From: Acrocarpospora macrocephala
Lineage (GTDB): Bacteria > Actinomycetota > Actinomycetes > Streptosporangiales > Streptosporangiaceae
Assembly (NCBI RefSeq): GCF_009687865.1
Contig: NZ_BLAE01000022.1
Span: 62,001-126,000, forward strand
Length of the DNA: 64,000 nt
Direction of reading: 5' to 3'
Shown here: piece by piece, positions 39,758-42,961 of the stretch
How the letters are laid out: each line of letters starts with the position of its first letter
Position numbering within the stretch: the stretch's first letter is position 1
Translations under genes and position numbers: made by a program
The notes under the pieces: model-generated
Seen by the model: only the letters and a program-made list of their open reading frames with translations
What the model was told of the DNA's origin: nothing
The model's database searches: none

Positions 39758-40105
39758 GACAGACACGTGTCCTGTTTCAGCGACCTGCTCACCGCTTGAA
39801 GCGCTGACCTGGGCTGATAGCAGATCAGATGAGCCGTTCCGACTCGTCGGTCTCACTTGACCTGCTCGCTCAGGCAGGTTCGCTGAGCGGCGTCTCACTT
39901 AATCTGCTCCGTGAGGCCGTTTTCCGCGGCTCTGGTCCCACCTCAGGAGCTGACTCCTCGTGTGAGGCGCCCTCCGGGCGGCCCAGCAGCTGACAGGGTC
40001 GTGCTTGAGGCTGTCCATGGTGTCCCCGACTCCGCGCGAGACCGAGACGCGCGCCAGAGCCCGTTCCCGCCGCCGGGCGACGACATCCGAAAAACGGGTT
40101 TGAGC
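39758..40105. other. Gene-free stretch between the PIN and DUF2268 genes
   Basis: About 350 bp without a credible gene. It contains two imperfect 17-bp direct repeats (TCTCACTTGACCTGCTC at 39851 and a 14/17 match at 39893), 42 bp apart, and a CAGGAGCTGACTCC dyad around 39943. The repeats might be binding sites or the remnant of a duplicated sequence; nothing more can be said. Confidence 0.4.
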
Positions 40106-40120
40106 CTCACGTAACGTGAG
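40106..40120. promoter_or_regulatory. MerR-type operator before the DUF2268 gene
   Basis: The 15-bp dyad CTCACGT-A-ACGTGAG lies between TTGAGC (40100-40105) and TAGCGT (40125-40130), giving a 19-bp spacer, the hallmark of MerR-activated promoters. The same 15-mer with one mismatch lies upstream of the MerR gene at 42128-42142. Confidence 0.75.
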
Positions 40121-40137
40121 TCCGTAGCGTCGCCGGC

Positions 40138-41028
40138 ATGAAACTCATCGTGCACGACACCGCCGCGACGATCGGCGGCATCCTGGCCCGGCCGCTCCCC
40201 GAGCGCGCCGAGGCCCTGTCCGGGCTTATCGGCCCGATGCTGGCCGCGATGCCCTTCCTCGGCACCGGCGACCTGGCCGCCTTCCATCACCGGGGCAGCG
40301 GCTTCCGGGTCGACCGCGACGACGACCGGTACCCGGCGGCGCTGCACCGCCTGCGCGCGGCCGGCGTCTGGGAGCGCGTCGAGGCCGAGGTCACCCGGGC
40401 CTGGGAGCACCAGCGGGCGGCCGTGCCCGGCATCCGGGCGGCCGAGGAGGTCAACGTCGTCCTGGTCCTGGGCGACCCGGACGACGACTGGCTGATCGGC
40501 CACAACCGAGGGCTGTTCGGCATGGGCGCCATCCCCGGCTGGATCCACCTGACCGTCTGGCCGACTGACGACAACATCGACCTGATCGCGCATTGCGCGG
40601 TCCACGAGTTCAACCACAATGTCCGCTACGCCAACGTGGTGTGGAATCCGGCCACGGTGGAGCTGGGCGAGCAGATCGTCTCGGAGGGCCTGGCCGACGC
40701 GTTCGTCCGGGAACTGTCCGGGGAGAGCGCGCTGGGCCCGTGGGCGACCGCGCTCCGGCCGGAGGACTTCGACCACGCGTACCGGACGATCACAGCCGCG
40801 CTCGGGCTGACCGGGATGGCGAACTTCTCCGCGTACGTGCACGGGGACACCTCGGCCCGCCGGATGGGCGCCGAGCCGGTCGGCCTGCCGGACATGGCCG
40901 GCTACCCGGTGGGCCTGGCAATCGTGGACGCGCATCTGAAGGCCACCGGCCTGACCGCGGCGGCCAGCACCGCCCTGCCCAGCAAGGAGATCATCGCCAA
41001 CGCGGGACTCCTCCCCGGCTCCAGGTAG
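40138..41028 (+). CDS. DUF2268-family putative zinc metallopeptidase
   Basis: 296 residues with the HExxH zinc motif H156-E-F-N-H160 in AHCAVHEFNHNVRY and a downstream glutamate candidate in IVSEGLADAFVRELSG, the usual DUF2268 arrangement. GWIHLTVWPTDDN precedes the active-site helix. No signal peptide, so a cytoplasmic peptidase. Its promoter carries the MerR-type dyad described separately; the MerR gene is convergent 300 bp downstream. The last bases overlap a decayed phosphotransferase fragment on the other strand. Confidence 0.88.
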   Translation: MKLIVHDTAATIGGILARPLPERAEALSGLIGPMLAAMPFLGTGDLAAFHHRGSGFRVDRDDDRYPAALHRLRAAGVWERVEAEVTRAWEHQRAAVPGIRAAEEVNVVLVLGDPDDDWLIGHNRGLFGMGAIPGWIHLTVWPTDDNIDLIAHCAVHEFNHNVRYANVVWNPATVELGEQIVSEGLADAFVRELSGESALGPWATALRPEDFDHAYRTITAALGLTGMANFSAYVHGDTSARRMGAEPVGLPDMAGYPVGLAIVDAHLKATGLTAAASTALPSKEIIANAGLLPGSR

Positions 41029-41275
41029 CTCCGCAGGATGGCCCAGTTCTCCGCGTCGTCGCCGTGCGGGGCGCGGAGACGGGCGGCGGTGCACACCGTG
41101 ATGTCGTTGAGCCGCCACCGGAGCCGGTACAGGTCCAGGGTCGGCGTGTCGGATGACGCCGGTGGCGTCGGCGTACGCCGTCAGGACGGAGCCGTCGCCA
41201 GGATCCAGGGCCCACAGGTCGCGTTCCGGCTGGGCCGGTAGGGCTGTCTCCCAGTCGATGCTGCCATCCTGGGTA
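41000..41275 (-). pseudogene. Frameshifted 3' fragment of an APH-fold phosphotransferase
   Basis: On the minus strand one frame reads WETALPAQPERDLWALDPGD and GSVLTAYADATGV. The continuation moves to another frame with LDLYRLRWRLNDITVCTAAR, LRAPHGDDAENWAILRSYLE. Together they match the C-terminal half of APH-family kinases (..RDLW.LDPGDGSVL.AY..ATG.....LYRLRW.L.DI....FRAPH...). The kinase N-terminal half and catalytic loop are missing, and the two parts need a frameshift near 41130. A dead fragment. Confidence 0.7.
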
Positions 41276-41326
41276 ACGCCTATTACAGCGGGGTTTCCGG
41301 TTTCACAGACCGGAAACCCCGCAGGT
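41261..41326 (-). repeat. Copy 1 of a hairpin-plus-leader repeat
   Basis: Read on the minus strand: a GTTTCC...GGAAAC hairpin, then CTGTAATAGGC and GTTACCCAGGATGGCAG. The copy at 55261-55318 has the same order and the same 17-base end. Here it precedes the APH fragment. Confidence 0.65.
41288..41322. terminator. Strong bidirectional hairpin between DUF2268 and MerR genes
   Basis: A perfect 14-bp stem (GCGGGGTTTCCGGT and complement) with a 7-nt loop, 4 bp beyond the MerR stop on the minus strand. It serves the convergent pair as terminator, and it is also part of a ~60-bp sequence repeated at 55261-55318. Confidence 0.7.
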
Positions 41327-42087
41327 CAGGCCTGCCTACGGGCGGCGTTGGTGTGAATGGCTTCACGAATGTACGCCGCCATGCCGGGCGCGATCGTGTC
41401 GTAGTTGGCGGTGAAGCGGGGGTCGTTGACGTACAGGTCGCCGAGGCCGCGGTGGATGTCGTGGCCGCAGTCGTAGAACCAGCGGCTGATGTGCAGCCGA
41501 TGTTCCTCGGCCAGATCGGCGGCCCGTTCCCCGCTCGCGGGCGTGCCCTCGCTGTAGGCGGCGGCGAAGGCGTGGACGATCTCCCCGGCCTCCTGTTTGA
41601 TCTTCACCCAGTCGGCTTTGGTGTAAGCGGCGGTGCGGCGGCGGCTCTGCTCGAACGTGGCGGTGCCGCCCCAGCGTTCCTCCGCCTCCTGCTCGTGGTC
41701 CTCGGGGCGGAAGCCGCCGAAAACCTCGAAACGCTCCTCCGGAGTGAGGGATATGCCCATCGTGTGTGCCTCCATCGCGGTCTCTACGGCGGCCAGCATG
41801 CCGGCCAGCCGGTCCATCCGGGTGCGCAGCAGCCGATGCTGGCGGCGCAGGTGGGTCAGGGGGTCGACGGCCGGGTCGTCGAGGATGACCGTGATCTCCT
41901 CCAGCGGGAAGCCCAACTCCCGGTAGAACAGGATGCGCTGCAGCCGGTCCAAGTCCGCCTCGGTATAACGCCGGTACCCGCCCCGGGTGCGCTCACTCGG
42001 CGTCAGCAGGCCGATCTCGTCGTAGTGGTGCAAGGTGCGTACGGTGACCGCCGCGAACGCGGCCACCTGCCCCACCGAATAACTCAT
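41326..42087 (-). CDS. MerR-family regulator with TipAS-type ligand domain
   Basis: 253 residues. HTH: SYSVGQVAAFAAVTVRTLHH, then GYRRYTEADLDRLQRILFYR and the dimer helix. The C-terminal half (EERFEVFGGFRPEDHEQEAEERWG and YNDP-like end DLYVNDPRFTANYDTIAPGM) is the TipAS/TipAL antibiotic-recognition fold. TipAL-type proteins bind thiopeptides or other ligands and activate promoters with 19-bp spacers, including their own. A matching dyad precedes this gene and also the DUF2268 gene. Confidence 0.92.
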   Translation of the reverse strand: MSYSVGQVAAFAAVTVRTLHHYDEIGLLTPSERTRGGYRRYTEADLDRLQRILFYRELGFPLEEITVILDDPAVDPLTHLRRQHRLLRTRMDRLAGMLAAVETAMEAHTMGISLTPEERFEVFGGFRPEDHEQEAEERWGGTATFEQSRRRTAAYTKADWVKIKQEAGEIVHAFAAAYSEGTPASGERAADLAEEHRLHISRWFYDCGHDIHRGLGDLYVNDPRFTANYDTIAPGMAAYIREAIHTNAARRQA

Positions 42088-42127
42088 CCCGACCCTCTTC
42101 CCCTTTTCGTCCCTTCCAGGGTGCGGG

Positions 42128-42142
42128 CTCCCGTTACGTGAG
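42128..42142. promoter_or_regulatory. MerR autoregulatory operator
   Basis: On the minus strand CTCACGTAACGGGAG, 14 of 15 bases identical to the DUF2268 operator, directly behind a TTGACC -35 box (42148-42143). A 19-bp spacer puts the -10 near 42123-42118. Confidence 0.7.
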
Positions 42143-42238
42143 GGTCAACTTGTGGCCGAACCCGGCGATGTCCATCCGCCTGCGCGCCTCCTGCCGACAG
42201 AGGCGCTGTACTGAATGCGCGAATAGGCACAAAACTAG

Positions 42239-42274
42239 CGATACCAGACAGAAGGTGAATTCTGTCTGGTATCG
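42239..42274. promoter_or_regulatory. 36-bp inverted repeat before the GNAT gene
   Basis: Perfect 15-bp arms (CGATACCAGACAGAA and complement) with a 6-bp middle. It lies about 100 bp before the acetyltransferase start in an AT-richer island. It could be an operator, a hairpin in a leader, or the remnant of an insertion end. Confidence 0.55.
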
Positions 42275-42376
42275 GAAAGGGGTTCTCAACGGCTGATCAA
42301 CGGCCGCCTGTCCTGTTGTCCCGCCTCAAACGACCCGCTCGGCGTCTCACGCGGCACCCCTATGGAAAGGAATCCG

Positions 42377-42961
42377 GTGAACCACCAACGCCTCCCGCCA
42401 GCACCCACTAAGAGACTGGCGTTCCGCGAGATGACGGTTGACGATCTCGACGACATGGCGGCGCTCTTGGCTGACCCCAAGGTCATGCGGTATTACCCGA
42501 AACCGATGAATCGCGATGAGGCACGGGGCTGGATCGAATGGAGCCAGCATCTCTACCGCGAGCACGGTCACGGATTGTGGCTGATCACGCTCCAAGACAC
42601 CGGCGAGTTCGTCGGCAACTGCGGCTTGCCCGTACAGAACGTCGAGGGATCCGTCCAGGTCGAGATCGGCTACCTTGTCCGAACCGACCTCCAGGGCAAC
42701 GGCTACGCTACCGAGGCCGCGACCGCCTGCCGCGACCATGCTCGCGACATCCTTGAGGCCAAAACGCTCAATTCGTCCGTGAGGTGCTTGGTCGATCTGG
42801 TTCTGACGGATGACGCCGTTGTTCTCGACTCCTTGCCGTCGAAGCTTGAAAGCGCGCTTATTACTCCGCTCAGCATCCTCGCAAGCGTCTACGAGGAGGG
42901 CAGGTACCTGGATGGCGCCCCAGACGAGGTCGCGGAACTGATCCGTGCGCTCCCGAGCTGA
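42377..42961 (+). CDS. GNAT acetyltransferase with replaced C-terminus (chimeric)
   Basis: 194 residues. The first 125 are a RimJ/RimL-type GNAT: LAFREMTVDDLDDMAALLAD, EARGWIEWSQ, GNCGLPVQ, VEIGYLVRTDLQGNGYATEA with the Q/R-x-x-G-x-A acetyl-CoA loop. After CRDHARDIL the expected last strands are missing, and the protein continues VRCLVDLVLTDDAVVLDSLP and ASVYEEGRYLDGAPDEVAEL, unlike GNATs. Base composition drops at the junction near 42750. A deletion or insertion seems to have joined two genes, and activity is doubtful. GTG at 42377 follows GAAAGGA; an ATG at 42362 is possible. Confidence 0.7.
   Translation: MNHQRLPPAPTKRLAFREMTVDDLDDMAALLADPKVMRYYPKPMNRDEARGWIEWSQHLYREHGHGLWLITLQDTGEFVGNCGLPVQNVEGSVQVEIGYLVRTDLQGNGYATEAATACRDHARDILEAKTLNSSVRCLVDLVLTDDAVVLDSLPSKLESALITPLSILASVYEEGRYLDGAPDEVAELIRALPS

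Follow-up and report, generated by a model that had tools for sequence, protein, structure and literature searches.

The convergent DUF2268 and MerR genes of Acrocarpospora macrocephala, located in the 64,000-nucleotide stretch of DNA analyzed here (the window), very probably form an extended TipA system in which drug-bound TipA would activate both tipA and the gene for a cytosolic HExxH metallopeptidase with a leaderless mRNA. A first-pass annotation of the window had proposed that one TipAS-type MerR regulator likely controls a DUF2268 peptidase, and a conserved TipA-DUF2268 regulon is supported by a shared operator, a known binding motif, in-trans footprints, and gene co-occurrence, which also extend the original interpretation. 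The regulator type stands and can be refined to TipA itself; the adjacency of the two genes appears to be derived, leaving the operator as the conserved link between them.

TipA, a textbook antibiotic sensor, is also the source of a widely used expression promoter. A conserved second target would give this sensor an effector enzyme and would assign both a regulator and a probable class of inducers to an uncharacterized peptidase family. The TipA-DUF2268 wiring recurs across dozens of soil bacteria and points to an antibiotic-inducible enzyme; should that enzyme destroy thiopeptide-like drugs, it would represent a new form of intrinsic resistance among soil bacteria that make antibiotics.

Promoters and operators of the convergent pair

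The sequence upstream of the DUF2268 gene reads TTGAGC-CTCACGTAACGTGAG-TCCG-TAGCGT-CGCCGGC-ATG, with the -10 box 7 bp from the ATG at 40138, while that upstream of the MerR gene reads TTGACC-CTCACGTAACGGGAG-CCCG-CACCCT, with a weak -10 box and the dyad (42142-42128, minus strand) 40 bp from the ATG at 42087 (Table 1). The two 15-mers share 14 of 15 bases and the same spacing, and both spacers measure 19 bp, the length required by MerR-type activators. Both dyads and their geometry are exactly as first annotated, as is the convergence of the genes (40138-41028 on the plus strand versus 42087-41326 on the minus strand). Since the DUF2268 promoter stops 7 bp short of the ATG, the mRNA is predicted to be leaderless, and the hairpin between the genes is a probable terminator. 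Elsewhere in the window, a perfect 14-bp inverted repeat (GATACCAGACAGAA-GGTGAA-TTCTGTCTGGTATC, 42239-42272) lies upstream of a GNAT acetyltransferase gene (42362-42961) and, having no T run after it, is perhaps an operator.

Table 1. Coordinates of promoter, operator, and gene features at the window locus
Feature	Position	Strand	Details
Putative DUF2268 promoter	40100..40130	+	TTGAGC(40100-40105)-N19-TAGCGT(40125-40130)
Putative TipA-type operator, perfect dyad CTCACGTAACGTGAG	40106..40120	+	Within DUF2268 promoter spacer
DUF2268 ORF, P0001 (296 aa), predicted zinc metallopeptidase	40138..41028	+	Pfam PF10026
Strong hairpin, 16-bp stem, between convergent genes, beside tipA end	41288..41322	.	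Fold -36.6 kcal/mol, z = -6.7
tipA ortholog, P0002 (253 aa), TipAL form: MerR HTH plus TipAS domain	41326..42087	-	Pfam, phmmer
Probable short TipAS form, internal ATG at 41760	41326..41760	-	GGAGGCACACACGATG
Putative tipA promoter, TTGACC(42148-42143)-N19-CACCCT(42123-42118)	42118..42148	-	
Putative autoregulatory operator CTCACGTAACGGGAG, imperfect right half	42128..42142	-	tipA promoter spacer

By sequence, the window MerR is an ortholog of TipA itself rather than merely a TipAS-type protein. P0002 matches the Pfam MerR_1 domain at its N-terminal HTH (E value of 6.6e-18) and TipAS at its C terminus (E value of 1.1e-39), its best PDB matches by phmmer are Streptomyces lividans TipA chains (HTH, 2vz4, E value of 5e-47; TipAS, 2mbz, E value of 2e-47), and it is ∼60% identical to S. 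lividans TipAL. An internal GGAGG is followed by an ATG at codon 110, with M110 aligning to residue 1 of S. lividans TipAS, making this a probable start for the short form. The residues I112, F123, and F126, identified as TipA switch residues (PMC7762955), are all conserved. The system thus resembles S. lividans TipA in its orthologous regulator, 19-bp spacer, autoregulation, probable internal start, and switch residues. TipA captures thiopeptides covalently through a cysteine, and the window protein differs in one of the two TipAS cysteines: aligned with the S. lividans protein, P0002 retains C207 and has glycine in place of C214. Since Cys214 is not conserved, thiostrepton itself may not be the ligand, and the ligand or binding mode may differ.

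Drug-dependent binding to this DNA motif has been demonstrated for S. lividans TipA, with TipAL binding a 26-bp stretch of tipA promoter DNA (TTGCACCTCACGTCACGTGAGGAGGC) in vitro at ∼30 nM in the presence of thiostrepton (PMC7762955). The DUF2268 dyad CTCACGTAACGTGAG matches the operator used in that assay at 14 of 15 positions, and since only the centre base departs from the assayed 15-mer, binding of TipA to the DUF2268 dyad is expected, the match being the strongest direct ground for that expectation. The window TipA is probably drug responsive as well. TipA-type control of both promoters through the MerR spacer mechanism is well supported, and we infer that the in vivo regulator of both sites is TipA.

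A published account presents S. lividans TipA as a minimal system of one autoregulated gene (PMC7762955), whereas the system described here has DUF2268 as a conserved second target, with stand-alone TipAS genes as a third in one genus. Further TipA targets were already suspected, since the accessible part of a review mentions that TipA activates, besides itself, other unnamed proteins needed for thiostrepton resistance (PMC9909328). The thiostrepton-uptake genes of Planobispora described in the literature were set aside, the genes being different.

The close convergent pair is probably the product of a rearrangement, since window segments 40023-41010 (DUF2268), 41020-41260, and 41261-42090 (tipA and the hairpin) match three separate places on a contig from the same genus (G079:C44), on which DUF2268 and tipA are ∼27 kb apart. 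Window positions 41020-41325 constitute the junction, in which pieces lying kilobases apart in G079:C44 are joined between the two genes.

Operator specificity and footprint in related genomes

The genome scan for the 15-mer suggested by the first-pass annotation recovered CTCACGTNACGTGAG with at most one mismatch at 3 sites in the 12.1-Mb genome, and the two already noted, in the DUF2268 and tipA promoters, are the only ones embedded in a promoter. The third, on contig C14 (CTCACGGGACGTGAG), lacks a -35 and -10 and was rejected. Sites with 2 mismatches, apart from one on contig C71, were likewise dismissed as background because those inspected lack a promoter and a reversed-pattern control gave a comparable count (16 versus 18). 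The promoter-embedded pattern TTGNNNCTCACGNNNCGNGAG is expected ∼0.14 times per genome from base composition and was observed twice, and when the promoter-plus-dyad pattern was relaxed, with the -10 set to TAnnnT, it picked out from the whole genome only the DUF2268 promoter and a single MerR gene on contig C71. The two sites are short and separated by just 2 kb, so that a chance match or a product of gene order alone could be imagined, but such an origin is extremely improbable given the expected number of embedded sites and the retention of the footprint in 55 of 59 upstream regions and in trans between genera, and we reject it on the strength of the genome scans and in-trans footprints.

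In a family sample of 297 genomes, DUF2268 homologs were present in 104, and the close form (clade A) was present in 62. The 62 clade-A genomes contained 84 promoter-embedded dyads, compared with 1 for the reversed-pattern control, and these preceded DUF2268 (42), TipA-type MerR genes (20), stand-alone TipAS genes (16), or other sequences (6). As read from translations, the last group comprises 2 DUF5946-like genes, 1 VOC/glyoxalase-type gene, 1 other MerR gene, and 2 background-looking sites. The TipA-type dyads upstream of DUF5946-like genes (L083 and L084) are from two genomes of one genus, g4, and the VOC/glyoxalase-type gene (L085) encodes a possible drug-binding protein.

Within these 62 relatives, distances of 15 kb to megabases usually separate TipA from DUF2268, or the two occupy separate contigs, so it is the shared operator, not adjacency, that connects them. 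A dyad promoter with a TTG-type -35 precedes 41 of 42 tipA orthologs; its -10 is usually CAnnnT, versus TA in DUF2268 promoters, and the right half of its dyad is usually imperfect. These two features suggest that tipA and DUF2268 promoters differ in strength. TipA orthologs were found in 54 of the 62 genomes with clade-A DUF2268 versus 22 of the 235 without it (Fisher P value of 1e-32, uncorrected for phylogeny). At least 4 (G003, G200, G266, and G271) of the 8 clade-A genomes lacking a close TipA ortholog retain a TipA-type operator, and for this reason either another regulator is possibly involved or the assemblies are incomplete.

A second MerR gene of the A. macrocephala genome, on contig C71 (L051; G000:C71:7500-10800, gene at 1354-2130 on the minus strand), encodes a protein with a weak TipAS match. 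Its promoter carries the dyad CTCACGCGACGTCAG within TTGCAC-N19-TACCGT, and the start codon directly follows the -10, giving it a leaderless appearance. Control of DUF2268, wholly or partly, by a different MerR such as this one, with the dyads alike simply through the general similarity of MerR operators, would be compatible with the nearly identical HTH helix of the C71 protein (LTVRTLHHYDQIGLL), with the dyad in its own promoter, and with the absence of TipA from some DUF2268 genomes. We nevertheless consider this unlikely: the right half of the C71 dyad is CGTCAG versus CGTGAG or CGGGAG, CTCAC...GAG-type sites precede tipA, TipAS, and DUF2268 and hardly anything else, and TipA and DUF2268 co-occur strongly. 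A possible role for the C71 MerR is that of a co-regulator of DUF2268 next to TipA.

The stand-alone TipAS genes preceded by a dyad are ∼130 to 150 aa in length and confined to genus g4 (L053, L054, L055, L066, L067, L079, and L082). They lack an HTH, and most have the promoter-embedded dyad with a TAGCGT -10, that of L067 being a one-base variant (CTTACGTCGCGTGAG). From its sequence, each looks like a dedicated drug-trapping gene that has joined the TipA regulon. A link between these genes and loss of the internal TipAS start was considered and dropped, as it was inconsistent across the sequences compared. In genus g37, a near-identical site recurs (TTGCGTCTCACGCCGCGTGAG); in G252 it lies in a stretch lacking a -10 box, and it is probably conserved coding sequence and not a promoter.

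The predicted DUF2268 metallopeptidase and its potential substrate

P0001, the product of the single DUF2268 gene in the A. macrocephala genome, matches PF10026 with an E value of 3.5e-36 (125 bits versus a gathering cutoff of 23.6), placing it in the DUF2268/COG5504 family of predicted Zn-dependent proteases, which thereby gains an assigned regulator class. The HExxH motif (H156-E157-x-x-H160) and the downstream E183, a candidate third zinc ligand, are invariant in all 60 aligned homologs, and the predicted catalytic site is therefore intact. A sequence search of the PDB with P0001 returned no match, and an AlphaFold model built from a three-sequence alignment was of low confidence (mean pLDDT of 57), with no significant PDB match in a fold search. 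In the partially covered literature on DUF2268, YjaZ, and COG5504, we found incidental mentions and no function, regulator, or inducer for the family; a literature search of likewise partial coverage found no link between DUF2268 and MerR.

We hypothesize that a peptide-like antibiotic binds TipA and releases its autoinhibition, upon which TipA would bind the 15-bp dyad that lies in the over-long (19-bp) spacer of both promoters and untwist them for RNA polymerase. Activation of the tipA promoter would yield more TipAL along with the drug-trapping TipAS form, and activation of the DUF2268 promoter would yield a leaderless mRNA for the cytosolic metallopeptidase, which would aid survival, most likely by hydrolyzing the peptide antibiotic that acts as inducer, whether free or bound by TipAS. 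The placement of an activator on a dyad within an over-long spacer of 19 to 20 bp is shared with the MerR regulons of CueR, ZntR, BmrR, and Mta, which differ in that their targets are transporters or detoxifying enzymes and in their effector domains, though Mta does have a domain of the TipAS class.

Degradation of the inducing antibiotic is favored as the role of the peptidase because the sensor class recognizes peptide drugs and because cleavage of albicidin by the endopeptidase AlbD is known (PMC6078987); clearance of drug-damaged proteins is nearly as plausible. Thiostrepton and similar TipA inducers inhibit the ribosome. It is quite possible that the regulation is real and the drug is not the substrate, with the peptidase instead clearing or processing faulty proteins that result from a translation block or, in a stress response, cleaving a protein of the host. 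A highly modified macrocycle would be hard to cleave, and the family is widespread, occurring also in Bacillota and Deinococcota, where the inducers probably differ. Against this, TipAS-type sensors are associated with drug neutralization, and albicidin is cleaved by another endopeptidase, AlbD (PMC6078987). The likeness to AlbD is one of principle, the destruction of a peptide antibiotic by an endopeptidase. The albicidin-binding protein AlbA, with its tandem TipAS-like domains, is, like TipA, a drug-binding MerR protein; AlbA and AlbD are from different organisms and, in the accessible part of the source, are not described as one regulon (PMC6078987).

Operator divergence across Actinomycetes and plasmids

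Among 59 distinct DUF2268 upstream sequences from across Actinomycetes, 55 contain, within a 19-bp spacer, a dyad that begins 31 to 33 bp ahead of the start codon, and in 52 of these 55, 6 or all 7 of the dyad pairs are present. The dyads stay palindromic as they vary, with half-site pairs that include CTCACGT/ACGTGAG, CTCCCGT/ACGGGAG, CTCCTGT/ACAGGAG, CTCCAGT/ACTGGAG, CTGACGC/GCGTCAG, and TTGACGC/GCGTCAA. Copies of DUF2268 on Priestia and Deinococcus plasmids are also preceded by dyads in 19-bp spacers, located more distantly upstream. Outside the window genome, DUF2268 in some cases has a MerR or TipAS gene as its neighbor, arranged either in tandem or convergently, and divergent dyads are accompanied by different regulators: Streptomyces sp. 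NBC_00984 and KN37 have a tandem MerR, Clavibacter has a convergent TipAS gene, and G252 has a diverged TipA-like gene. In these few examples, operator and regulator change together. Because the dyads diverge and the associated regulators differ too, the wiring of a TipAS-type MerR to DUF2268 would predate any single operator sequence.

We tentatively propose, as a broader reading that is possible and still rather doubtful, that DUF2268 is a drug-inducible family that inactivates peptide antibiotics sensed by TipAS domains, forming part of a module to sense, trap, and destroy such drugs throughout Actinomycetes and perhaps in further phyla; within this module, operator and regulator would have codiverged while the wiring was kept. 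In a second DUF2268 clade (clade B, ∼42 to 45% identical), the gene is paired in tandem with a TipAS-type MerR of its own (G291:C1:2843005-2844637, G141:C12:414417-416049, and similar loci), and clade-B promoters at other loci (L111, L114, L116, and L121) carry the operator TTGACGCTGCGTCAA.
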